Positions 9,316-26,206 of a DNA stretch of 33,997 nucleotides are shown here, piece by piece. This DNA is from Candidatus Bathyarchaeota archaeon. GTDB taxonomy: Archaea; Thermoproteota; Bathyarchaeia; Bathyarchaeales; Bathyarchaeaceae. Position 1 is the stretch's first letter; each line of letters opens with the position of its first letter. The notes below the pieces were generated by a model. It was not told the origin of the DNA and did no database searches. It was given only the letters and a program-made list of their open reading frames with translations. Position numbers and translations under genes: made by a program. Where the stretch lies: the NCBI GenBank assembly GCA_020348865.1, contig CP070754.1:445311-479307 (forward strand). Reading direction: 5' to 3'.

Positions 9316-11427
9316 TTGGATGATGAAGAAATGGAAATTGACTTGCCAGAAATCCACATAGGACCAGACGTTCTATCCGATTTCGACAAAGCTATCCAGA
9401 CCGAGTGGATTGTAACCAACGGCCTAGGCGGATACGCCTCCTCAACAGTGCTGGGAATCAACACTCGAAAGTTTCACGGGCTCATGGTTGCTGCTTCTAA
9501 CCCTCCCGTAGACCGCAATGTTATTCTCACCAAACTCGATGAAGAGTTTCAGATCGAAAACAAGGTTTATTTCACAGGGGCAAACGAGCTAAAAAGCGGT
9601 ATTCAGCCCAGCGGGAGCCAGTCTCCGTCTAGCTTCTCTCTCAATCCTCTTCCCACCTATAGGTATGTTGCGCACGGTTTTGAGCTTCAGAAGAGAATTT
9701 TCATGCCTCATGGAAAGAACACCACTGTCGTGATGTATGAATCCTTCAACCCTAACAGGAGCGGGGTGGTTCTTCACATATCACCACTGCTCAGCTTTCG
9801 ACACTTTTATTCGGTGACGAAAAAAGAAAACTTGGGCTGGAGCTTTGTCCAGAAGCCTTTCGAGAAGGGAGTAATCGTCAAACCGTCTGTTCAACCATCA
9901 CCTCTAATCCTCTTTTCGAGCAAAGGACAATATTCCCCCAATGATGGAAAGTGGATTAGAGATGTTCTCTACCGGGTAGACTGTTCTCGTGGCGAAAGTT
10001 GCGTTGACGACAGTTTTCGGCCAGGGAAATTTGAACTCAGAATCGCTCCCAAGGAGAGAAAAGAATTCTTCGTTATTGCAGCTAAGTGCAGAAGCGAGAA
10101 AGAAGCTCAAACCGTTCTTTCGTCAATCTGCAGAGAGTCAAACTATGCAGATGTCCTATACAATCAGGAGTTGATACGTCTGGAAAACCTGTTAGCAACG
10201 TTTCGAAAACAGTACGCTGATGTTAAAATGGAAGATTGGCTGAAATGGCTTGTCCTGGTGGCCGATTCGTTCCTTGTCGAGAGGGCGTCGACCAAGACGA
10301 AATCAGTGATCGCCGGATACCACTGGTTTGAGGACTGGGGACGGGATTCAATGATTTCTCTGCCTGCATTAACGCTTGTCACAGGAAGATTCGAAGTTGC
10401 AGAGAAGATTCTGTTGACTTTCAAGCGTTATTGCAGCAAAGGCCTCATTCCTAATCGATTCCCAGATCAAGCTGGAGATACGCCACTCTACAACACGGTG
10501 GACGCCACTCTCTGGTATTTCAACGCGGTTCTTCAGTATCTCAAATACACAGGAAACTTTGATTTCGTAAGAAAGCAGCAGTGGGAATCGTTGCAGTCCA
10601 TTATTGAACACCACATTCATGGAACCAATTATAATGTACGAATGGATGACGATGGGCTAATCGCACATGGGCCACAGCTAACATGGATGGATGCAATGAC
10701 AGGCGACCAGCCTGTGACTCCCAGAAATGGAAAAGCCGTTGAAATCCAGGCGTTGTGGTACAACGCTTTGAAAGTCATGGAACTCCTTGCTACACGGTTC
10801 AACCAGAAGCTAGGTGCAGAAAAGTACCGAGATCTGGCTGAAAAAACCAGAAATAGCTTAGCAGAAAAGTTTTGGAACTCACGGAAGCATTGCTTGTTTG
10901 ATGTAATCTGTGAAGGCCAGAGAGACAAAGCATTAAGACCAAATCAAGTGATAGCTGTTGCGCTAGATTTTACCATGCTTGATAGAACAAGAGCAAAGGA
11001 AGTTGTTGAAACTGTCCGGAGAGAGCTCTGGGGCAAGTATGGGCTGAGAACCCTATCAAAAGATAATCCACAGTATATAGGAAAATACATAGGAGATTGG
11101 ACATATCGGAACAGGGCGTACCACAACGGGACAGTTTGGGCTTGGCTTCTTGGGCCTTTCACCACTGCGTTTCTCAAAGTCAAAGAATACGAGAAGCGTT
11201 GGCGGAATTTCGCTTTTCAGAATTTTTTGAAGCCGCTCTTTCAGGAGAAGACTTTCAAAGGGGGACTCGGAACAATAAGCGAGATATTTGATGGTGATTC
11301 ACCCCATGCCTCTCGGGGATGCGTATCTCAGGCATGGAGCGTGGCTGAGCCGTTGAGAGCTTTCATTGAGGACGTCTTGCTGAAAAGACCTCCATACGAA
11401 AGACAGATTCTAACTGAGGTTACGTAA
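9316..11427 (+). CDS. Glycogen debranching enzyme (amylo-alpha-1,6-glucosidase, GH133-like)
   Basis: Removes alpha-1,6 branches during breakdown of glycogen-like polymers. The N-terminal domain (about residues 20-220) begins with TEWIVTNGLGGYASSTVLG followed by TRKFHGLMVAA, the hallmark of the GDE N-terminal domain. The C-terminal (alpha/alpha)6 domain, about 290-690, contains WFEDWGRDSMISLPALTL, NTVDATLWYFNAV, LTWMDAMTGDQPVTPR, GKAVEIQALWYNAL and YHNGTVWAWLLGP, with several acidic residues in the expected catalytic region. The 703 residues are the usual archaeal and bacterial length. The TTG at 9316 lies 3 nt after the DUF89 stop; an in-frame ATG at 9331 is an alternative. It is the first of several glucan-related genes in the window. 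Assignment is strong. Confidence 0.95.
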   Translation: MDDEEMEIDLPEIHIGPDVLSDFDKAIQTEWIVTNGLGGYASSTVLGINTRKFHGLMVAASNPPVDRNVILTKLDEEFQIENKVYFTGANELKSGIQPSGSQSPSSFSLNPLPTYRYVAHGFELQKRIFMPHGKNTTVVMYESFNPNRSGVVLHISPLLSFRHFYSVTKKENLGWSFVQKPFEKGVIVKPSVQPSPLILFSSKGQYSPNDGKWIRDVLYRVDCSRGESCVDDSFRPGKFELRIAPKERKEFFVIAAKCRSEKEAQTVLSSICRESNYADVLYNQELIRLENLLATFRKQYADVKMEDWLKWLVLVADSFLVERASTKTKSVIAGYHWFEDWGRDSMISLPALTLVTGRFEVAEKILLTFKRYCSKGLIPNRFPDQAGDTPLYNTVDATLWYFNAVLQYLKYTGNFDFVRKQQWESLQSIIEHHIHGTNYNVRMDDDGLIAHGPQLTWMDAMTGDQPVTPRNGKAVEIQALWYNALKVMELLATRFNQKLGAEKYRDLAEKTRNSLAEKFWNSRKHCLFDVICEGQRDKALRPNQVIAVALDFTMLDRTRAKEVVETVRRELWGKYGLRTLSKDNPQYIGKYIGDWTYRNRAYHNGTVWAWLLGPFTTAFLKVKEYEKRWRNFAFQNFLKPLFQEKTFKGGLGTISEIFDGDSPHASRGCVSQAWSVAEPLRAFIEDVLLKRPPYERQILTEVT

Positions 11428-11622
11428 TTATGTAGGCTTGCGGGAAAACGTTACCGAATTTCCGCACATATAGCCAACTAGTCATTGACTGTCTCCATCT
11501 TGTCAAATCGCGTGTACGGTGTTGACTCATTTGCAAGCATGAAACACCTCATATCGCACATCCAAGTCAATGTTCAAGGAACCAATCAAGCCTTATATTC
11601 CTCAGATTTCAAGGGTTGATTT

Positions 11623-12693
11623 ATGAGATCAGATAATGCAATTGGACCTTCCAGAACTGGGGTGAGAGTGGTTAAGAAACCATCTTATGTTGTTGACCAA
11701 TCTAGGCTTCAACGTTTTGACGTCAGAAACACAGTTTTCGAGAGGATAACATGGGATTCGTCGTGGAAAGGCCACAAACAAATGTACGACGAAAGACTTC
11801 TTGATACAGTGGCTGAAGGGAAATGTGGCTATTCGAGAGTCGACGTTGCCTTAACCTGTGCTTCATGGATAGTGCACGATGCTTTTGAAGGCGGGTTCTC
11901 TTGGAAGAAAATCGAGATACAGAGGACCCCAAGAGGCTCTCTTGGAATTGACTGGACGAAAACGACTTGTGAAGTTAATGATACACGCAAGATGAGCGTT
12001 TGTGTCAAGCGCGCGGCAAGGCTCTTCGGTGCTTCGCTGATAGGAATCTGCAAGCTCAACAGAGACTGGTTGTACACAGGCATTGAAATCCCAGACGAAT
12101 TTCAGAATGTCATCGTTATGGCTATTGAAATGGATTTGGATGGAATTGGAACTTCTCCCACTGCCTTAGCTGCAGCCGCTACTGGAGTAGGATACTCAAA
12201 AATGGCTTTCACGCTCGCAAGCATGGGCGAGTTCATCCGAAACCTTGGATATGAAGCCATCCAATGCGGAAACGACACTGCCTTGAGTGTTCCAATCGCA
12301 ATCGACGCCGGGCTAGGAGAACTAGGGCGCAATGGCCTGCTAATAACTCCTCAATATGGTCCAAGAGTCAGACTCTGCAAGATTTTCACAAATCTCCCAC
12401 TGCAACTCGATAAACCTATAGAGTTCGGTGTAAAAGGATCCTGCAAAAAATGCAAATTGTGTGCCAAACATTGCGAAGCACATGCAATCTCTGTAGAAGA
12501 TGATCCGAGTTTCACGGTGATATGTCAATCGAATAATCCAGGAGCATTAAAATGGTATGTTGACGCTGAAAAATGCTACCTCTATTGGTGCGAGAACGGC
12601 ACAGATTGCTCAACCTGCATCAAAGTCTGTCCATACAACATCGCGTCAGGAAGGAAAACTGACCTTTCTTCAAAAGAGTTTTGGGGCACATAA
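11623..12693 (+). CDS. Reductive-dehalogenase-like Fe-S/cobamide protein lacking a Tat signal
   Basis: Resembles the catalytic subunit RdhA, in which a cobamide and two 4Fe-4S clusters reduce organohalides; the QueG epoxyqueuosine reductases are more distant relatives. Family motifs include SPTALAAAATGVGYSKMAF, CGNDTALSVPIAIDAG, LGELGRNGLLITPQYGPRVR and LCKIFTNLPL. The first cluster is Cys274, 277, 280 and 284; its last Cys is followed by Glu rather than the common Pro. The second uses Cys329, 332 and 336, with Cys318 or Cys323 nearby. At 356 residues it is shorter than respiratory RdhA, has no twin-arginine signal, and no rdhB-like anchor gene is adjacent, so it is probably soluble and cytoplasmic. 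The ATG follows GGGTTGATTT. TATATTCC at 11593-11600 may be its TATA box. The substrate is unknown. Confidence 0.85.
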   Translation: MRSDNAIGPSRTGVRVVKKPSYVVDQSRLQRFDVRNTVFERITWDSSWKGHKQMYDERLLDTVAEGKCGYSRVDVALTCASWIVHDAFEGGFSWKKIEIQRTPRGSLGIDWTKTTCEVNDTRKMSVCVKRAARLFGASLIGICKLNRDWLYTGIEIPDEFQNVIVMAIEMDLDGIGTSPTALAAAATGVGYSKMAFTLASMGEFIRNLGYEAIQCGNDTALSVPIAIDAGLGELGRNGLLITPQYGPRVRLCKIFTNLPLQLDKPIEFGVKGSCKKCKLCAKHCEAHAISVEDDPSFTVICQSNNPGALKWYVDAEKCYLYWCENGTDCSTCIKVCPYNIASGRKTDLSSKEFWGT

Positions 12694-12732
12694 ACCGCCC
12701 TTCCTCCCCAGCAGAATCAACAAGGATGAAGG

Positions 12733-13866
12733 CTATTTTGCCTTCAGACAAGGTCGTCCTCTAGCACTGTTGAAGCTACTCTTTAACCCATTTCCAGTCA
12801 AAATGACTACGGCTTCATCGCACTTTGATGTTTCTCTAGCTTTGAACTGTTTCTGGTACCCAGCATAGGCAACAGCCGAGCTTGGTTCAACAAAAAAGCC
12901 TTTTCTCCCAAGATCTAGGAAAGCGTTGAATATTTCATGTTCTTCAACCAGCACAGTAGATCCGTTTGAGTCCTTCAAACTTTTGGTCATAAGGTCCAGA
13001 AGAGGAGGGTTCACACTCACCAGAGCGTCGGCAATGGAGGTTATCCTTTCAGGAGGAGTGTAGTCCAAGCCTCTAAAGCGATGATGCAAAGGTGAGACCT
13101 GTCTCGTCTGGCAAGCAACAATTCTCGGAAAGGTCCCGACTAGACCGGATTTTTCTAGATGCTTGAGCCCATCTATAATCCCAAGAAGTAAGGTTCCAGC
13201 AGACACTGGCAGATAGATGATGTCTGGGAGTCTCCATTCAAGCTGTTCTGCTAGCTCGTAGGCGAGGCATCGTATGCCATCCCTAAATAGAGGATGTAAT
13301 ATGTGCCCAACATAGAATTTTCTTCGTTCATTTTTCTGTGCTTCCGCCGCAACTTCGCTTCTGCCCCCGGAAACTTTGACAACCTCTGCCCCATAAAAGC
13401 GAATTTGGTTAAGCTTCTGCCCAGAAACGCTTTCCGGAACGTAGATTTTAGCTTTCAATTGTGCACAAGCGGCATAGGCTGCTATGGATGCCCCGGCGTT
13501 GCCTGAAGAATCCTCTGAAACGTATCCTCTAACATCTTTCAGTGGTACATTCAAAGCGGAGATCAGCGCAGTTGACCCTCTATCCTTGAAGGAGCCTGTT
13601 GGATTCAAATAGTCTAGCTTGAAGTGCAGGCCTTTTGAAGGCTTGATCAAGGGTGTCCATCCTTCTCCTAGGCTTATGATTTCTTCATCTTTTACATATG
13701 GGAAAAAGTCCATGTAGCGCAGTAGGCCTCGATTTCGATTGTGAATCTTCTCCTTTTCGAAATGGAAATCTAAACGCGTTTCAAATGGCGAACAGCAGAA
13801 ACATCGAAAATCCAACACGCTGGACGATATGCGACCACATTTTGAGCATCTGATTTCGAATTCCAT
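12733..13866 (-). CDS. thrC: Threonine-synthase-like PLP-dependent enzyme
   Basis: A fold-type II PLP enzyme; threonine synthase converts O-phosphohomoserine to threonine. The N-terminal zinc-ribbon-like segment has Cys7, Cys10, Cys22, Cys24 and Cys25. SLGEGWTPLIKP follows, and LNPTGSFKDRG contains the PLP lysine Lys94. SEDSSGNAGASIAAYAA binds the PLP phosphate or substrate, and ILTGNGLK is near the C-terminus. The ATG at 13866 is preferred over a GTG at 13884 because GGAG lies upstream and the product then starts MEFEIRC. The 377 residues suit the archaeal threonine synthase group, but related paralogues such as threonine dehydratase-like or cysteate synthase-like enzymes cannot be excluded. 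It is convergent with the reductive-dehalogenase-like gene. Confidence 0.85.
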   Translation of the reverse strand: MEFEIRCSKCGRISSSVLDFRCFCCSPFETRLDFHFEKEKIHNRNRGLLRYMDFFPYVKDEEIISLGEGWTPLIKPSKGLHFKLDYLNPTGSFKDRGSTALISALNVPLKDVRGYVSEDSSGNAGASIAAYAACAQLKAKIYVPESVSGQKLNQIRFYGAEVVKVSGGRSEVAAEAQKNERRKFYVGHILHPLFRDGIRCLAYELAEQLEWRLPDIIYLPVSAGTLLLGIIDGLKHLEKSGLVGTFPRIVACQTRQVSPLHHRFRGLDYTPPERITSIADALVSVNPPLLDLMTKSLKDSNGSTVLVEEHEIFNAFLDLGRKGFFVEPSSAVAYAGYQKQFKARETSKCDEAVVILTGNGLKSSFNSARGRPCLKAK

Positions 13867-14000
13867 ACTCCGTGCTCCAATCACATGAGCTTGCTAGTAA
13901 TTGGCTATTGTTCTCACACAAGTTTTAACGGTTTACATTGTTCGATGTGATGCTGTTGAAAGATGCTTCAACAAGAAGAGGGTGAAAAACACCACGCGCG

Positions 14001-14007
14001 TATATAG
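14001..14007 (+). promoter_or_regulatory. Putative TATA box for the winged-helix gene at 14051
   Basis: TATATAG, preceded by a GC-rich ACGCGCG, is centred 47 nt before the ATG, leaving a leader of about 20 nt that carries GTGATGAG. Confidence 0.4.
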
Positions 14008-14050
14008 CTTTATTTGATTGGTAGTCTGAGTTCTACGTGATGAGTGTCAT

Positions 14051-14308
14051 ATGACAGCGCAGACTAGGAGACGTGCACGACACGATATTATCATGAGAGT
14101 CTTGGAAGTTGCGAAGAGCGGTGAGAGAAAGACAAACATGATGCTCAAAGCTCGCTTGAACTTCGACATGGCAGAGCGGTATTTGACAGCTTTGAACCAA
14201 GCTGGACTGATCACTGAAGAGTTGGGTGTTTGGAGGACAACGGAGAAAGGGCTTCATGTCATAGAAGCTTGCAGCATATGTCGTTTTCTGGCAGAGGAAG
14301 CGAAGTGA
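14051..14308 (+). CDS. Archaeal winged-helix protein (HTH_45-like), paralogue 1
   Basis: A small DNA-binding-type protein of 85 residues. The pattern DIIMRVLEVAKSGERKTNMM, then LKARLNFDMAERYLTALNQ, then AGLITEELGVWRTTEKGLHV reads as helix, recognition helix and wing. The same pattern occurs in the genes at 29006 and 30238 (DIxxxVL...KTxIMYxANLSxxxLxRYL), so the three are paralogues. They resemble the archaeal PF14947-type winged helix, usually described as a transcriptional regulator. The C-terminus has a CSIC pair at about residues 75-78. It is divergent from the threonine-synthase-like gene, so it might control either. The regulon is unknown. Confidence 0.8.
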   Translation: MTAQTRRRARHDIIMRVLEVAKSGERKTNMMLKARLNFDMAERYLTALNQAGLITEELGVWRTTEKGLHVIEACSICRFLAEEAK

Positions 14309-14473
14309 GAACCGACTGCATGTGAATGTGGCGGCGTGAAATAGTAGAATTTTAGGCTTGATTCAACCTCAGTTGTTACAGCTCCGCCTAGGGAATCCTG
14401 TGACTGTGCACCATTCTTCTCATCATGTTGCTCGCGCATAGAAAGCTTGTCTGTGTCTGCAATCTTACGGTGT

Positions 14474-15382
14474 TCAACGCGTAGTAACAAGGTAGACTCC
14501 GATGAAAACTAGAAGTCCTCCCACAAGAATGGACCAATTCAGCTTTTCCCCAATAAACGTGACCGAAAACAAGACAGTGACCAGCGGCTCTGCAAACAGG
14601 AATGAACTGGTGACGGCCGCTCCAACTTGTTTCAGTACGTAGAACCAGATATAATATCCAAAAAGAGAACAAGCAAGAGATAGGAAGAGAACTGCCATCC
14701 AGCCTTTCAGGCTCATCGTGAATATCAAATGAAGAGAGTTTTCAGCTAGAGAAAAAGGGATTAGACATAATCCCCCCAGAATTGCCACGTAGGCTACAAC
14801 AAGAAAAGGGCTATACTTCTCCATTATCTTCTTTCCCAAGAGGCTGTATGTAGCCCAGAGAACTGGGGTGGAGAGCAAGATCAAGCTTCCCAGAAAGAAT
14901 TCCATGCTACCTGGAAAGCCCAAAGCACCACGTGTGAGGACAGTTGATGCACCAGCAATGGCAAGTCCAATTCCAACAATCTGCTTTTTCTCAAAACGTT
15001 CCTTGAATATGTGAGCGGAGAGAATAGTGATAAGAATCGGCGAGAGGAGGCACACAAAAATCGCTGCGACGGGTGCGCTCGCCATCTGAATGCCAGTGTA
15101 CTGAGCAGTGAAAAAAAAAGTGACGCCTGTGAGAGCAAGAAACAGCAGTGTCCGAACGTCTTCCTTTCCAACGAGAAGTCTACAGTCTTGTTCTCTACAT
15201 TTCTTGAAGAGAAGCATGACGAGGAAGAATCCACCTGCAACGAGAAATCTGAAAGTGGCTATTGCAACGGGGGTCAATCCGTCTCTTAGCGCAATCTCAA
15301 CGACTACAAACGAGCTTCCCCACAAGACTATCAGAGTTATCATTAGGAATGCGTTGAAGGAACCTATTGTGCTTGCTTGCAT
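14474..15382 (-). CDS. EamA/DMT-superfamily transporter
   Basis: An integral membrane protein of the drug/metabolite transporter superfamily, whose members export or import amino acids, metabolites or nucleotide sugars. The 302 residues contain about ten hydrophobic segments arranged as two EamA repeats: the first from about residue 10 (LWGSSFVVVEIALRDGL) and the second from about residue 160 (PVLWATYSLLGKKIM). LFAEPLVTVLFSVTFIGEKL near residue 270 is the typical end of the second repeat. The ATG at 15382 is about 34 nt from a TATA-like ATTAAATC, so the mRNA is nearly leaderless. It is convergent with the winged-helix gene and divergent from the hydrolase gene. Substrate cannot be told from sequence. 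Confidence 0.9.
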   Translation of the reverse strand: MQASTIGSFNAFLMITLIVLWGSSFVVVEIALRDGLTPVAIATFRFLVAGGFFLVMLLFKKCREQDCRLLVGKEDVRTLLFLALTGVTFFFTAQYTGIQMASAPVAAIFVCLLSPILITILSAHIFKERFEKKQIVGIGLAIAGASTVLTRGALGFPGSMEFFLGSLILLSTPVLWATYSLLGKKIMEKYSPFLVVAYVAILGGLCLIPFSLAENSLHLIFTMSLKGWMAVLFLSLACSLFGYYIWFYVLKQVGAAVTSSFLFAEPLVTVLFSVTFIGEKLNWSILVGGLLVFIGVYLVTTR

Positions 15383-15412
15383 AGTGGGTATCTTCTTGCT
15401 TGGTGCATAAAT

Positions 15413-15420
15413 GATTTAAT
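15413..15420 (-). promoter_or_regulatory. Putative TATA box for the EamA gene
   Basis: ATTAAATC on the minus strand, centred about 34 nt before the ATG at 15382, predicts a leader of only about 8 nt. Confidence 0.35.
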
Positions 15421-15450
15421 CAGAAACTCGAAAACAGAGATACACTCTAG

Positions 15451-15459
15451 CTTTATATG
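15451..15459 (+). promoter_or_regulatory. Putative TATA box for the MBL-fold hydrolase
   Basis: CTTTATATG is placed so that transcription would begin near 15481, just ahead of GGAG (15481-15484) and a short frame starting at 15489. Confidence 0.4.
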
Positions 15460-15488
15460 CGCTCAGAAAGAGACTAGGTAGGAGAAAA

Positions 15489-15545
15489 ATGAACAAGGTT
15501 AAGAAGCCATGGATGGGTGAGTGTCCCAAATGGGTCTTTCAGTGA
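15489..15545 (+). promoter_or_regulatory. Short upstream frame (18 codons) overlapping the hydrolase start
   Basis: An ATG at 15489, 4 nt after GGAG, opens an 18-codon frame (MNKVKKPWMGECPKWVFQ) that ends in TGA after the downstream gene has already begun in another frame. It could be a leader peptide coupling translation, or chance. Nothing proves it is translated. Confidence 0.3.
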
Positions 15546-16174
15546 AATGGTTGGGTCACGCCAGCTTCATCATAGAAGCTGAGGGAAAAGCCATCTATAT
15601 CGATCCCTATGAAGGAGAATACACTGAAAAAGCGGATATCACATTGGTGACTCACTCTCATCACGACCACTGCGACCCCTCAAAGATCAACAAGGTTCGC
15701 AAGGACGAAACCATAATCATTTCACCAGCCGAATGCGTCCCCAAGATAGGCGGAAAAGTGAAGACACTCAAGCCTGGGGAGAGAATTACAATTGGAAACA
15801 TAACCGTGGAAGCCACAGAGGCCTACAACTGCAAGCGCTTCAGGTCACCAGGAAAACCCTTCCACCCTAGAGGTCACGGAGTGGGCTACATCATAACGGT
15901 CAAAGGAAAGACGGTCTACCACGCAGGGGACACGGATTTCATACCAGAAATGGATAACTTAGGAAAAGTCGACCTAGCCCTGCTTCCAAGCGGAGACACC
16001 TACACCATGGATAATTCAGACGCCGCAAAAGCCACCCTCACTATCAAACCACAAGTGGTCATTCCAATGCACCGTTGGGACACCGATCCCACAGAACTCA
16101 AAGAGAGTGTCGAAGCTGCGTCACAAATCAGAGTTGTTACGTTGAAACCAGGACAGCAGTTCACATTGGAATAA
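15530..16174 (+). CDS. Metallo-beta-lactamase-fold metal-dependent hydrolase (UPF0173/UlaG-like)
   Basis: A cytoplasmic metal-dependent hydrolase of the MBL superfamily, similar to the UPF0173 group. The protein opens MGLSVKWLGHASFIIEAEGK, and YIDPY and THSHHDHCD supply the HxHxDH metal ligands. HAGDTDFIPEM and PMHRWDTDP provide the later metal-binding Asp and His. The 214 residues match the family. The ATG at 15530 is chosen over a GTG at 15521: GGGTGAG at 15514-15520 directly abuts the GTG but is about 9 nt from the ATG. The gene is divergent from the EamA transporter. The natural substrate of this group is unknown. Confidence 0.9.
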   Translation: MGLSVKWLGHASFIIEAEGKAIYIDPYEGEYTEKADITLVTHSHHDHCDPSKINKVRKDETIIISPAECVPKIGGKVKTLKPGERITIGNITVEATEAYNCKRFRSPGKPFHPRGHGVGYIITVKGKTVYHAGDTDFIPEMDNLGKVDLALLPSGDTYTMDNSDAAKATLTIKPQVVIPMHRWDTDPTELKESVEAASQIRVVTLKPGQQFTLE

Positions 16175-16296
16175 CCTACCTATGCAACTTCGTTGCCTGA
16201 GAGTAATCTTATCATACAACGAAATCAGTGTTACACTATAGATTGTGAACGCCCTTGTGCAAACTTGAAAACCAAGGCGTGCAATGCAGCATTTTC

Positions 16297-17478
16297 TCAG
16301 TCATCAAAACAGTATTCCACTTTCCTGAAGTCAGCACAAAGCCTAGCAACGTCTTTCTTAATTTTCTCTGGCTGTTCTTCGTCCCTGATTGTTCTCTTTA
16401 CCATTTCGGCGATTTTCAGCATTTCCTCATCCTTCATTCCACGCCTTGTAACCTCGCACGTGCCAATTCTGACACCACAGTCAACAATAATGTTCACGCT
16501 TTGAAGTCTTTCCGCTATGACTCTACCTTGCTCAAAACCTCCGTAATCCAAGATTACTTGATGAGATTCGGTAAACCCCAAATGCTGGCAGACAACAGGG
16601 AATCCGTAATCATATAGGGCTTCAGCCAAGGTTTTCGAATTGCTAATCACCTGCTTGGCGTAAGCTCCACCGAAATTTCTCGTTTCAGCCAAGGCCAAGG
16701 TGAGCGCTGCTATGCGGTTCCAGTGAGCGTTATCCACAAGGGTTGGATAGATTTTCTCTTTCATTATTTCTCCATGTTCTTTGTCGGCCAGAATTATTCC
16801 TCCTTGGGGGCCGAAAAGTGTTTTATGGGTTGAACCAAACATGGTGTGTGCCCCCTCCCTTAGGGGGTGTTGAAACTGGTTGCCAGCAATGAGTCCCATA
16901 ACGTGAGAACCGTCATATCCAATGTGTGCACCATATTCGTTGGCAACTCCGACTAGTTCCTTAATTGGATGTGGGAAAGTGATTAGGCTTGCGCCAAAAA
17001 CTACAAGTCTAGGTTTAATGCTTCTTATGATCTCTTTTGCTTGTTCAATTTCAATGTTCATATTGTGCTTTGAGAAAGGGAAAGGCGATGTCTTGAGGTC
17101 GAAAAGTCCGGCCAAGCCGTTCTTCCACATTCCAGGGTACCCCCCATCCTCTGGAGAAACGCACATAAGCACATCTTCTGGCTTTGCGAAACTAGCTAGG
17201 TAAACCAAATCGGCAACATGTCCTGAGAGAGGGCGCAAATCTGCAGTCTCAGCTCCGAAGACTTCCTTCGCGACTTCTTCGCCATAGCACTCGATTTCGT
17301 CAATGAAGCTGGTGCCCATGTAGAAGTGATTTCTTGCTGTGTATCGATGTCCAAGGTCCGAGGAGAGAAGCTGCAGAACAGCAGAGCTCATGACGTTCTC
17401 GGAGGGAATAAGATTCAAGCATTGTTTTACACGCCACTCTTCATGCTGCTCAACTAGGCTTAAGATATCATCAATCAT
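16297..17478 (-). CDS. glyA: Serine hydroxymethyltransferase, archaeal type
   Basis: PLP enzyme that interconverts serine and glycine while transferring a one-carbon unit to a tetrahydropterin (in many archaea tetrahydromethanopterin). Seen are CLNLIPSENVMS, HRYTARNHFYMG, AETADLRPLSGHVADL, YDGSHVMGLIAG and the PLP site FGSTHKTLFGPQGG with the lysine at residue 219. CGVRIGTCEVTRRGM lies in the C-terminal domain. Length is 393 residues from the ATG at 17478, which has GTGGT about 5 nt upstream; a GTG at 17487 would add three residues. It is tail-to-tail with the MBL-fold hydrolase and divergent from the GH57 gene. Assignment is secure; the folate or pterin cofactor cannot be told. Confidence 0.95.
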   Translation of the reverse strand: MIDDILSLVEQHEEWRVKQCLNLIPSENVMSSAVLQLLSSDLGHRYTARNHFYMGTSFIDEIECYGEEVAKEVFGAETADLRPLSGHVADLVYLASFAKPEDVLMCVSPEDGGYPGMWKNGLAGLFDLKTSPFPFSKHNMNIEIEQAKEIIRSIKPRLVVFGASLITFPHPIKELVGVANEYGAHIGYDGSHVMGLIAGNQFQHPLREGAHTMFGSTHKTLFGPQGGIILADKEHGEIMKEKIYPTLVDNAHWNRIAALTLALAETRNFGGAYAKQVISNSKTLAEALYDYGFPVVCQHLGFTESHQVILDYGGFEQGRVIAERLQSVNIIVDCGVRIGTCEVTRRGMKDEEMLKIAEMVKRTIRDEEQPEKIKKDVARLCADFRKVEYCFDD

Positions 17479-17625
17479 GTCTACCACTCAAGGTCCAAGC
17501 AATATTGCATCTCTAGATTTAAGTCATTTTTCCAACAAGACTTCCAAAAGCTTAACAGTTTCCACATGCTCGCTTACATATCGAGCCTTAGACTGAACAT
17601 GCGGAAGTATTTCAGTGATTCAGAA

Positions 17626-17635
17626 TTTATTTATA
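17626..17635 (+). promoter_or_regulatory. Putative TATA box for the GH57 gene
   Basis: TTTATTTATA is followed by a predicted start of transcription near 17657, next to an ATG at 17659 that opens a 13-codon frame ending immediately before the GH57 GTG. Confidence 0.4.
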
Positions 17636-17658
17636 GGGTCAGTCCATCGATACTAACA

Positions 17659-17700
17659 ATGATTAAAAGCGTACTCAAAATTTCAGGGTGGCTGGTTTAG
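17659..17700 (+). promoter_or_regulatory. 13-codon upstream frame abutting the GH57 start
   Basis: ATG at 17659 reads MIKSVLKISGWLV and stops with TAG at 17698-17700, directly before the GTG of the GH57 gene and in the same frame. It sits where a leaderless mRNA should begin. It may be a leader peptide; the GH57 N-terminus is complete without it. Confidence 0.35.
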
Positions 17701-19272
17701 GTGACTGATGTTTGCTTCATCTTTGAGGTTCATCAGCCCTTTAGGTTAAGCCGGAATTTTCACAAGGACCTACTGGACCATCAATCCGTGACCAAGAAGG
17801 ACCTTTTTGATCTTTATTTTGATCATAGGTTAAACCGTCACATATTTGATAGGGCCGCTAGGAAGTGCTATTTTCCCTCAAACAACGTTATCTTGGAGCA
17901 GATTGACAGGCATAAAAAAGATCGGAAACAATTCAAAGTGGCCTATGGCATTTCAGGTGTCTTCATCGAACAATGTGAACGCTGGAACACTGATCTTCTT
18001 GATTCTTTCAAACAACTGGCCAAATCTGGATGTGTGGAGTTTCTTAGCCAACCATACTATCACTCACTTGCTAGCTTGTACGGAATTGATCGTTCGGAAT
18101 TCGCTGAACAAATCGGCATGCACCGCCAGCTTATGAAAGACCTGTTTGGATGTGAGCCAAGAGTTGTTGAAAACACCGAATGTTTGTACAACAACGCGAT
18201 CGCCAAAACTGTTGAGGGACTCGGCTACGAGGCTACCGTAACGGAGGGGGTCGAGAGAGTTCTCGGTTGGAGAAGCCCAAATCATGTATACAAGGCCAAG
18301 GATTCTACTCTTCGAGTTCTGCTCCGCAACTATCAACTCTCTGATGACATAGGGTTTCGATTTTCTTCTACACAGTGGGAGGAGTGGCCCTTGACCGCAG
18401 ACAAATATGCAAGCTGGCTGGCTTCAACTCCAGGACATGTTGTCACTCTTTTCGTCGACTATGAGACCTTCGGTGAACACCACTGGCCGGAAAGCGGGAT
18501 TCACGAATTCTTGAGGTGGCTGCCTAGTAAGGTGATTGAATGGGAGCATCTTCAGTGGTGTAATCCTTCCGACGTTGTCCGACAACACGCACCAGTTGGA
18601 GAGATTGATGTTTCCGATTATGACACAGTCTCTTGGGCAGACCTTGAGCGGGATCCCAGCGCCTGGATCGATAACCCTATGCAAAAGAGTTGCTATGACT
18701 CCCTGAAAGGGTTGGAGCAACCTGTGAAGGCAACGGGTGACAGAGACCTAAAGACGTTGTGGCGGTATCTCCAGATGAGCGATCACCTATACTATTTGAG
18801 CGTCAAGGGCGGAGGCCCTGGAGATGTGCACAGCTATTTCAATCCGTGCAGTAGTCCCATCGAAGCTTTTGCAGGATATTCAAAAATCATCTCCGACCTT
18901 GAGATCAGGATTATGCGAGAACTGGAGCGACCCGAGCTCGTGGCGAAGAGAGTTCTGCGTCAGTTATCAGTGGCAAAAGGCTTCACCTTTTTCCATGGGT
19001 TCGCACGACGTAGCCAACGTGCAGTTCGTAGCCTGAATGAATTCCATTCCGCTCTTAGGACAGTTGACCTAGAGTCAATTCGTTTTCACATGGAGCGAGG
19101 AGACTTTGAACGATGGATTCGTCAAGTTGTCGGAGATGACCAACTAGCTGGAAGGGTGGCGAAGCTGTCTGATGGAAAATTGATTGGTGAAAAACTACGC
19201 AGAAGAATACTCGGTGTTGTTGAGCGAAGGATAAGAAGACTGCAAGAGACAGCAGCCAAGGGGTTATCATGA
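17701..19272 (+). CDS. GH57 alpha-amylase-type enzyme with C-terminal DUF5752-like domain
   Basis: GH57 enzymes hydrolyse or transfer alpha-glucan chains by a retaining mechanism. The catalytic part, about residues 1-410, shows FIFEVHQPFRLSR (motif 1), CVEFLSQPYYHS, VENTECLYNN with Glu160 the likely nucleophile, and LFVDYETFGEH with Asp253 the likely acid/base. The HQPFRL start resembles the alpha-amylase group more than GH57 branching enzymes. Residues about 425-515 form a separate domain, starting KGFTFFHGFARR and containing RSLNEFHSALRTV and RGDFERW; it is homologous to the C-terminus of the winged-helix gene at 23827. The GTG start directly follows the TAG of an in-frame upstream frame. 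Its stop overlaps an ATG in frame with the nucleotidyltransferase. It probably acts on the glycogen-like polymer. Confidence 0.92.
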   Translation: MTDVCFIFEVHQPFRLSRNFHKDLLDHQSVTKKDLFDLYFDHRLNRHIFDRAARKCYFPSNNVILEQIDRHKKDRKQFKVAYGISGVFIEQCERWNTDLLDSFKQLAKSGCVEFLSQPYYHSLASLYGIDRSEFAEQIGMHRQLMKDLFGCEPRVVENTECLYNNAIAKTVEGLGYEATVTEGVERVLGWRSPNHVYKAKDSTLRVLLRNYQLSDDIGFRFSSTQWEEWPLTADKYASWLASTPGHVVTLFVDYETFGEHHWPESGIHEFLRWLPSKVIEWEHLQWCNPSDVVRQHAPVGEIDVSDYDTVSWADLERDPSAWIDNPMQKSCYDSLKGLEQPVKATGDRDLKTLWRYLQMSDHLYYLSVKGGGPGDVHSYFNPCSSPIEAFAGYSKIISDLEIRIMRELERPELVAKRVLRQLSVAKGFTFFHGFARRSQRAVRSLNEFHSALRTVDLESIRFHMERGDFERWIRQVVGDDQLAGRVAKLSDGKLIGEKLRRRILGVVERRIRRLQETAAKGLS

Positions 19273-19291
19273 AGCAGAACTTAGCACACTG

Positions 19292-19298
19292 TATAAAT
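19292..19298 (+). promoter_or_regulatory. Putative internal promoter of the nucleotidyltransferase gene
   Basis: TATAAAT lies 28 nt (centre) before the ATG at 19323, so transcription would begin almost exactly at that ATG. This argues for a leaderless start at 19323 rather than the overlapping in-frame ATG at 19269. Confidence 0.5.
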
Positions 19299-19322
19299 CG
19301 TGGTTTCAATTCAGGTCATAAT

Positions 19323-20606
19323 ATGAGTGAAAAGAGACTAAGATGCTTTATTCCGGTTGGTGGTCATGCAAAAAGATTGAGACCCCTAACGCATGATGTA
19401 TCGAAGCCTTGTGTTAGATTCTTGAATAGATCGCTGATTGAATTTTCCATGGTTCCACTGGCTGAACAGGGGATAAGGCATTTTATTTTCGGAGAGTGTG
19501 GTTACACCAACTATTCAAACCTCTTTGATCAATATGGAGAAGGCGTTGGTTTTTCAGCGAAGTATAAGATTTCTCCGAGGGTACATATTAAACATCAACC
19601 AAATCTTGATGATTTGGGAAGTGCTGATTCCTACAGGCTAAACATGAGATACTATGATGTCAATGATGCAGTCCTTGTTGTACAAGGAGACAACCTCTTT
19701 GACATTGATCTAGATGATTTGATCAAGAAGCATGAAGAAAACGGAGCCTTGATGACCATTGCCCTGATGAAAGTAAAGAATACAGAAGGATATGGAATAG
19801 CCAAGCTAGATGAAGATATGAGAATTAGAAGGTTTGTTGAAAAGCCTCCAGCAAACGAAGCACCAAGCAATCTTGCCAACGCCGGTATATATCTTCTGTC
19901 CTCTGACGTTAGAAAAGAAGTCGAGAGCGAAGAGGTCAAGGGAATAATGGAAGAAAGGAGAAGGCTTGATTTCGGCTTTGACTTCATCCCCTATTTGGTT
20001 GATAAGGGACTGCCAGTTTATGGTTATGAGTTGAAGGTATGGTATGATGTAGGAGGTCCAGAAAACTATCTGAAAGCCATGCATGACGTTCTTCATGGGA
20101 AGTTGAATATAAGAGTCTCAGAAAGGAGGATTCTACCAGGCAGAAATGTTTGGGTTCAAGGATATAGCGGAGAGTCCATCAAGAGACGGGAAGAAATAAT
20201 CCAAAAGATCAAAGAACACAGGTTATCTATAGATGGTGCTGCTCTGATTGGCAGACATACTCGAATAGGTAATAACTCCACTATTACAGACTCAAACATC
20301 GATAACTTCTGTATCCTAGGTGAACACACAAACGTTGAAAGATCAGCAATTTTGGATGCCGCCAAAATAGGCGATTACACGGACATTTCGGGCAGCGTTC
20401 TTGGCAGAAAGACCGTTGTTGAGTCAACCCGTGAAAAGCCCACCCATATTGAGTCAGCCTCCGTGATCGGAAACGCAGTTCACATCGGGAAGGGTTGCAG
20501 GATCATAAAAACCAGAGTCAACCCCAACCTGACAATTATGCCAGGCACGACGTATATCGACAAGTTTCTAAAGAATCATGAAGATATCGTGCAGTTGGCA
20601 GCTTAG
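19323..20606 (+). CDS. Sugar-1-phosphate nucleotidyltransferase with left-handed beta-helix domain
   Basis: Makes an NDP-sugar from sugar 1-phosphate and NTP, probably the glucosyl donor for the GT4 enzymes nearby, although ADP, UDP or dTDP use cannot be decided. The N-terminal Rossmann-like domain has IPVGGHAKRLRPLTHDVSKP with the catalytic Arg and Lys, VVQGDNLFDIDLDDL with a metal-binding Asp, and FVEKPPAN. WYDVGGPENYLKAM ends this domain. From about residue 300 come hexapeptide repeats (LIGRHTRIGNNSTI, CILGEHTNVERSA, VIGNAVHIGKGCRI) forming a beta-helix. The start at 19323 gives 427 residues and MSEKRLRCFIPVGG; an in-frame ATG at 19269 overlaps the GH57 stop but lies upstream of a TATAAAT. 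Confidence 0.9.
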   Translation: MSEKRLRCFIPVGGHAKRLRPLTHDVSKPCVRFLNRSLIEFSMVPLAEQGIRHFIFGECGYTNYSNLFDQYGEGVGFSAKYKISPRVHIKHQPNLDDLGSADSYRLNMRYYDVNDAVLVVQGDNLFDIDLDDLIKKHEENGALMTIALMKVKNTEGYGIAKLDEDMRIRRFVEKPPANEAPSNLANAGIYLLSSDVRKEVESEEVKGIMEERRRLDFGFDFIPYLVDKGLPVYGYELKVWYDVGGPENYLKAMHDVLHGKLNIRVSERRILPGRNVWVQGYSGESIKRREEIIQKIKEHRLSIDGAALIGRHTRIGNNSTITDSNIDNFCILGEHTNVERSAILDAAKIGDYTDISGSVLGRKTVVESTREKPTHIESASVIGNAVHIGKGCRIIKTRVNPNLTIMPGTTYIDKFLKNHEDIVQLAA

Positions 20607-25567: not shown

Positions 25568-25951
25568 CCCACACACGCCTCATGACTTTCAATTGCTGAC
25601 GTAGTTCTCTAATCCCTTCTTAAAAGACTTCCCCAGAATGTTCGACTCCAGCCTGGCTGTAAGTTTCTTCTTTGGTTCGTTGCGGATTGGGTAATCAACG
25701 CCTCTTTTGTTGGGATTGCGAGTAGATATTCGGAATGTTATGGGCGAGCTTGCTGCCATCTGCACAAGATACTTGGAAGGTTTGCAGAGAACTTGTCCTT
25801 AGCGTTCCTGATGGAGAAAGAAGCAGTTGGGAAAGCTTAATGCTGGGTATTGTGTTGGAGAAAGATCTGGCGAAAGAAATGTTGGTGCACAAGAGCTTGG
25901 TGAAACATAGCACAACGTTTTTGGCTTGAGACCTCAGTTTCTGATGGATAG
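25568..25951. other. Intergenic region before the tRNA gene
   Basis: About 380 nt with no supported gene. A 64-codon frame at 25735-25929 lacks an SD sequence and any recognisable features. The tRNA promoter and the fbp promoter must lie here; no single convincing TATA box was picked. Confidence 0.35.
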
Positions 25952-25983
25952 GGGCCCGTAGCCCAGACTGGATCAAGGCGCCG

Positions 25984-26010
25984 AACTGCCCAGAAGAGGG
26001 TAGTGCGTAA
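25984..26010 (+). other. tRNA intron 1, non-canonical position 29/30
   Basis: It fits a bulge-helix-bulge splice motif: exon GCGC (25978-25981) pairs with intron GCGT (26005-26008), flanked by 3-nt bulges CGA and AAG that contain the two splice sites. Inside, ACTGCCC and GGGTAGT form a 7-bp hairpin with a 6-nt loop. Confidence 0.75.
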
Positions 26011-26018
26011 GCCTCCGG

Positions 26019-26030
26019 ACCGTGGAAGAA
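26019..26030 (+). other. tRNA intron 2, canonical position 37/38
   Basis: A 12-nt insert after position 37. A relaxed splice motif can form: loop bases CTCC (26013-26016) face GAAG (26025-26028) with one mismatch, and AAA makes the 3' bulge. It is near the lower size limit known for archaeal tRNA introns. Confidence 0.6.
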
Positions 26031-26206
26031 AGCCGGAGATCCGGGGTTCAAATCCCCGCGGGCCCGCCACCTTTCTGGTTTGGAATCAGCGCTTCTGTAT
26101 CCTACGAGGCTCCTGTATGCAAACCTCCGCGAGACGATAGTAGAATAGCTTAAAATGTTGGGCGCAACCACACTAGTCAGAAGACATCAGAGATTGAGGG
26201 GAGTCT

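Follow-up and report, generated by a model that had tools for sequence, protein, structure and literature searches.

A tRNA-Arg(CCG) gene with two predicted introns in a Bathyarchaeia genome, and the conservation of its 29/30 intron across the order

An archaeal tRNA-Arg(CCG) locus whose anticodon region is 39 nt too long raises the question of whether it contains two introns, one of them at the non-canonical position 29/30, a single longer intron, or the insertions of a decaying pseudogene. The locus lies in a stretch of 33,997 nucleotides (here called the window) of a Bathyarchaeia genome that was assembled as a single contig of 1,497,384 bases, is 92.1% complete and contains runs of N (L104, L179-L181). 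Its closest named relatives are metagenome-assembled genomes of Candidatus Bathyarchaeota, with 77% identity to the replication factor C small subunit of CP070679.1; the replication factor C large-subunit protein had no match among named genomes. The tRNA gene adjoins the genes for fructose-1,6-bisphosphatase and two replication factor C subunits. Elsewhere in the window, positions 9316-20606 hold a group of genes for carbohydrate storage (a glycogen debranching enzyme, a protein of the GH57 family and a sugar nucleotidyltransferase), one member of which carries a DUF5752 domain.

Structure of the interrupted gene

The Rfam tRNA model matched positions 25952-26066 of the plus strand with 38.2 bits (gathering threshold, 29) and placed an insert in the anticodon region; no other part of the window matched Rfam. 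ARAGORN called no tRNA at 25952-26069, and its silence supports the initial annotation, which expected simple gene finders to probably miss or mislabel the locus. We analyzed the locus with a splicing search that was blind to that annotation and combined a cloverleaf score with a bulge-helix-bulge score after the removal of zero to two introns. The top-ranked solution (score, 60.5) removed a 27-nt segment following position 29 and a 12-nt segment following position 37, leaving a complete cloverleaf with the stem CCGGC/GCCGG, the loop CTCCGGA and the anticodon CCG, which is the product that had been proposed from the letters alone. The next distinct product scored 45.0. After 400 shuffles of the interior, the best score was 54.5 and none of the 400 reached 60.5; the intronless class I tRNAs of the genome score 55-61. 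Because the score is simple and we chose its thresholds ourselves, the evidence lies in this ranking rather than in the absolute value.

Archaeal introns are mostly single and located at 37/38, and one 39-nt deletion would leave a plausible length; both points fit one longer 37/38 intron, or a different anticodon, in place of two introns. However, the best single-intron solution scored 41.5 and the best motif-free single deletion 49, compared with 60.5 for two introns, so the search offered no competitive alternative of the kind that the initial annotation had named as grounds for its refutation. Moreover, relatives that do not carry the 37/38 intron retain the 29/30 intron and have an unbroken exon GCCTCCGGAGCCGG. 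We therefore assign this reading a negligible probability. The two-intron structure, which is further supported by about 70 homologous genes (see below), is given in Table 1.

Table 1. Coordinates of the tRNA-Arg(CCG) gene (window numbering) and of the leader element
Feature	Position	Strand	Content and basis
Whole tRNA-Arg(CCG) gene	25952-26069	+	Two introns, CCA encoded
Exon 1 (tRNA positions 1-29)	25952..25983	+	Acceptor GGGCCCG, D arm and CCG (first three anticodon-stem bases); Rfam tRNA match, splicing search, same boundary in 70 relatives' genes
Intron 1 (position 29/30), 27 nt	25984..26010	+	Top splicing solution, motif score 15
Intron 1 splice motif, 5' side	25978..25984	+	Core strand GCGC 25978-25981; bulge CGA (exon CG, intron A) 25982-25984
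Intron 1 inner hairpin	25985..26004	+	ACTGCCC 25985-25991 with GGGTAGT 25998-26004; 7 bp, one G-U
Intron 1 splice motif, 3' side	26005..26011	+	Core strand GCGT 26005-26008; bulge AAG (intron AA, exon G) 26009-26011
Exon 2 (positions 30-37)	26011..26018	+	GC CTCCGG, anticodon CCG 26015-26017; splicing search
Intron 2 (position 37/38), 12 nt	26019..26030	+	ACCGTGGAAGAA; splicing search
Exon 3 (positions 38-73)	26031..26066	+	Anticodon stem GCCGG, variable region, T arm, acceptor, G73; Rfam match, splicing search
Encoded CCA end	26067..26069	+	Read from sequence
Probable promoter region	25905..25922	+	ACATAGCACAACGTTTTT; 30-47 nt upstream of the tRNA gene, putative function
Leader site (L170)	G000:C1:21802-21853
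Leader site (L172)	G000:C1:726193-726253	-
Leader site (L072)	G000:C1:1052477-1052528
Further leader sites	L183-L202
Leader in viral contig IMGVR_UViG_3300035688_000062	L205:772-789		Just after an integrase gene, with portal and capsid-like genes nearby

The body of the tRNA is that of an arginine isoacceptor: over positions 1-77, the mature sequence is an 88% match to the Arg(GCG) gene of the genome, and Arg genes of relatives align with it as well. Upstream of the gene, ACATAGCACAAC is shared with the orthologues of two members of the same genus (G002 and G003) at about the same distance. The initial annotation had also named an intact second tRNA-Arg(CCG) as grounds for its refutation, and none was found: no site in the genome matched the intronless anticodon arm within 3 mismatches, and the 29/30 intron pattern had a single match. 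CGG codons occur 36 times in 17 open reading frames of the window. Arg(TCG) was absent from our targeted tRNA census of the genome; since Arg(TCG), if present, could read CGG, we make no claim that tRNA-Arg(CCG) is essential.

Conservation and covariation of the introns

Each of the 41 genomes searched with the mature sequence yielded Arg-like tRNAs. In the loci that we read, the 29/30 intron occurred in Arg(CCG) genes across the family and the order, with or without an accompanying 37/38 intron; some Arg(TCG) genes have it too. A strict 29/30 pattern (AAGGCRYCG, a gap of 4-34, GCCTCCGG, a gap and the T loop, where GCCTCCGG is a segment of exon 2) was found in 70 of the 257 genomes of the class, namely 70 of the 163 in the same order and none of the 94 in other orders; because the pattern fixes some bases, the count is a lower bound and the absence outside the order is provisional. 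We aligned 70 of the 71 matches (from 69 genomes; one identical copy was omitted). In these homologous genes, the introns vary in length and sequence, while the exons, splice sites and helices are kept. Intron 1 measures 16-32 nt (median, 25) and always occupies the same site. All four core pairs are present in 69 of the 70 genes, and the mean length of the inner helix is 4.5 bp, compared with 0.5 for shuffled introns (maximum, 0.97 over 1000 shuffles), about nine times the length expected by chance. Exon base 26 and its intron partner form G-C in 51 genes and A-U in 19, with zero exceptions among the 70, and thus covary perfectly; given the kinship among the genes, we attach no weight to the Fisher value itself. 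The A form of base 26 was found in families f1, f6 and f9 and therefore probably arose more than once.

The 37/38 intron was present in 37 of the 70 genes at 11-24 nt, with 12-nt copies in G002, G003 and G004. Intronless Arg(CCG) genes exist both in the same order (e.g., G131-G133, G136 and G140-G144) and outside it (G065-G068). Sequence comparison shows the 29/30 intron to be widespread in this bathyarchaeial order and the 37/38 intron to come and go among its members. As a separate observation, an Arg(CCG) gene and an Arg(TCG) gene that lie 2.7 kb apart in one genome (L108 and L114 in G009) carry 27-nt introns at 29/30 that are identical and share an odd mismatch in the T stem but differ in their D loops, a combination that points to gene conversion or to transfer of the intron between isoacceptors.

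These data also bear on the alternative that the locus is a tRNA pseudogene in decay whose anticodon arm took up random insertions, the CGG codons being read by another gene. Two insertions in one arm would fit such decay. So would the surrounding gene order, which is not kept in the nearest relatives: the DNA upstream of their replication factor C small-subunit gene holds no tRNA, and the position of the locus is therefore not conserved. Nevertheless, the acceptor and T arm are perfectly paired, removal of the insertions restores an exact cloverleaf, insertions with covarying motifs occupy the same sites in about 70 genomes, and we found no intact copy in the genome. Decay is thus a very improbable explanation. 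Overall, we observed the gene structure, its conservation, its covariation and the presence of a catalytic alpha subunit of the splicing endonuclease (see below), and we regard the locus as a tRNA-Arg(CCG) gene that is present in a single copy, is very probably functional and has two predicted protein-spliced archaeal introns.

Splice motifs and the splicing endonuclease

Intron 1 has two 3-nt bulges around a 4-bp core (4/4 pairs). Its exonic helix consists of a single pair, G23-C31, with A22 and C32 unpaired. A strict bulge-helix-bulge has at least two pairs in both outer helices (PMC7714728); therefore, intron 1 is of the HBh' type and not strict hBHBh'. The initial annotation was thus right about the core GCGC/GCGT, the two bulges and the 7-bp inner helix but not about strictness. 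In intron 2, the exonic helix is the 5-bp anticodon stem, the inner helix is 1 bp and the core CTCC/GAAG has 3/4 pairs owing to a C34-A mismatch; 3/4 pairs are usual in relatives too. Both introns are relaxed motifs, a class accepted by the (alpha-beta)2 endonuclease (PMC4090602, PMC4033280). The size of intron 2, earlier described as close to the smallest known, proved ordinary, as archaeal tRNA introns have a median length of 15 nt and a range of 11-129 nt (PMC3218864) and the splicing search placed 10-14-nt introns in other tRNA genes of the same genome.

We propose the following putative pathway. The transcript would fold intron 1 into an HBh' motif and intron 2 into an hBH-type motif on the anticodon stem, and the tRNA splicing endonuclease would cut each bulge after its second base. 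Intron 1 would presumably leave first; its removal would complete the anticodon stem, which forms the exonic helix when intron 2 is cut. The RNA ligase (the archaeal tRNA exon ligase is RtcB) would then join the exons into a standard tRNA for CGG codons. The weak points of this explanation are the mismatched core and 1-bp inner helix of intron 2 and the beta subunit missing from the assembly.

A single endonuclease gene was found in the genome (domain, G000:C1:388395-388649; protein of 185 aa, L104:1228-1782). Its best solved relatives are the catalytic subunits from Sulfolobus and Aeropyrum (E values of 1.5e-41 and 6e-40), it keeps the catalytic His and a DHAPYMV motif, and its loop YGKPIGIPKP aligns to the Aeropyrum extra loop YGQPLDVEKP. 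Judged by these features, it is a catalytic alpha subunit with the crenarchaeal extra loop; the lysine of this KP loop has a role in enzymes of the crenarchaeal type. Most relatives encode a second paralog with T, P or S at the His position (13 of the 13 copies translated), which is the predicted structural beta subunit; alpha and beta occur together in 30 of the 41 genomes searched. The close alpha match with its aligned loop and beta paralogs without the catalytic His resemble the crenarchaeal alpha2beta2 endonuclease (PDB 2cv8, 3p1z, 3ajv and 2zyz), from which this genome differs in that beta went undetected.

Searches for beta in the window's genome with PF01974, PF02778 and a profile of the relatives' beta proteins (A1) found none, nor did a PF01974 search of the single-contig congener G001. 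These results would fit a loss of beta, with an alpha-only endonuclease splicing tRNA-Arg(CCG) here. We consider this improbable, however: alpha-only and beta-only relatives both occur, as is the pattern of incomplete assemblies, the present assembly has runs of N, and the congeners G002 and G003 (98-99% complete) have both subunits. Because of these N runs and the two congeners, we attribute the missing beta gene to an assembly gap. Likewise improbable is the loss of beta from an entire lineage, whose alpha-only enzyme with the crenarchaeal loop would remove many relaxed non-canonical tRNA introns. If true, this lineage-wide reading would break the accepted tie of endonuclease architecture to intron type.

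tRNA introns of Bathyarchaeia among those of other archaea

Our genome-wide census used targeted searches and is incomplete, with approximate gene counts (tRNA loci L008-L027, L062, L067, L068, L070, L073 and L171). About 20 of the approximately 35 tRNA genes identified (~57%) carry introns, up to three each. The splicing search gave three introns in Glu(TTC) and Trp(CCA) and two in Tyr(GTA), the splits of the most-broken genes being provisional; Thr(GGT) has an intron of 11 nt, and Gly(TCC) is another gene with an intron at 29/30. The targeted searches found no gene for Ile-GAT, Asn, Phe, Arg-TCG, Arg-CCT or Gly-GCC; these isoacceptors may be broken beyond the reach of the search.

The census also turned up tRNA fragments. 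One is a 3'-half copy of tRNA-Gln(CTG) with the anticodon CTA (G000:C1:911096, minus strand; L173), whose match runs into the 3' flank and which sits 3.2 kb from the full tRNA-Gln(CTG) gene (914332, minus strand; L024); it is likely an integration remnant or a partial duplication. In addition, a leader of approximately aaaaaaggggttTGCGGGAGAYATCTCCACT lies directly 5' of the 3' ends of various tRNAs, with 42 copies in 28 of the 257 genomes of the class and 0 copies in a reversed-pattern control. We rejected three orphan tRNA 3' ends as halves of split genes, since the leader precedes the 3' ends of various tRNAs and adjoins a viral integrase. Because the leader recurs in 28 genomes of the class and has a viral copy beside the integrase gene, these ends are probably attachment sites, and the leader reads as a candidate signature of the attachment sites of viruses that use tRNA genes of Bathyarchaeia for integration.

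Multi-intron tRNA genes are known from Thermoproteales (Pyrobaculum and Thermofilum; Sugahara 2008, Fujishima 2010; reviewed in PMC4090602 and PMC8450103), with 71 introns over 46 genes in Pyrobaculum calidifontis (PMC8450103). As here, these tRNAs have several short bulge-helix-bulge introns each at canonical and non-canonical sites, of which 29/30 is listed. They belong to another class, and the bathyarchaeial case differs in that one isoacceptor has both of its intron sites conserved order-wide. The Caldivirga maquilingensis tRNA-Ala genes are split at the same 29/30 junction, as separate transcripts in contrast to the cis intron here (PMC4090602). The earlier statement that such tRNAs come mainly from some Thermoproteota was too narrow, as high intron loads with multiple non-canonical introns also occur in Atabeyarchaeia and Freyarchaeia of the Asgard archaea (PMC11291895); that is another phylum, in which 92-95% of the tRNA genes of three genomes have introns, compared with ~57% of the genes identified here.

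In the non-subscription literature that we searched, we found no survey of Bathyarchaeia tRNA introns. A two-intron tRNA gene is of a kind already known; the new part is order-wide conservation in Bathyarchaeia. Simple gene finders under-count tRNAs in such genomes, which serves as a warning for their annotation. With these findings, the Bathyarchaeia, which are abundant and uncultured archaea, join the intron-rich tRNA lineages. Within one order, a single isoacceptor occurs without introns, with the 29/30 intron alone or with both the 29/30 and the 37/38 intron, and compensatory changes are seen across the splice helix. This amounts to a clean natural experiment, so that a species tree can be used to date how introns were gained, lost and spread.
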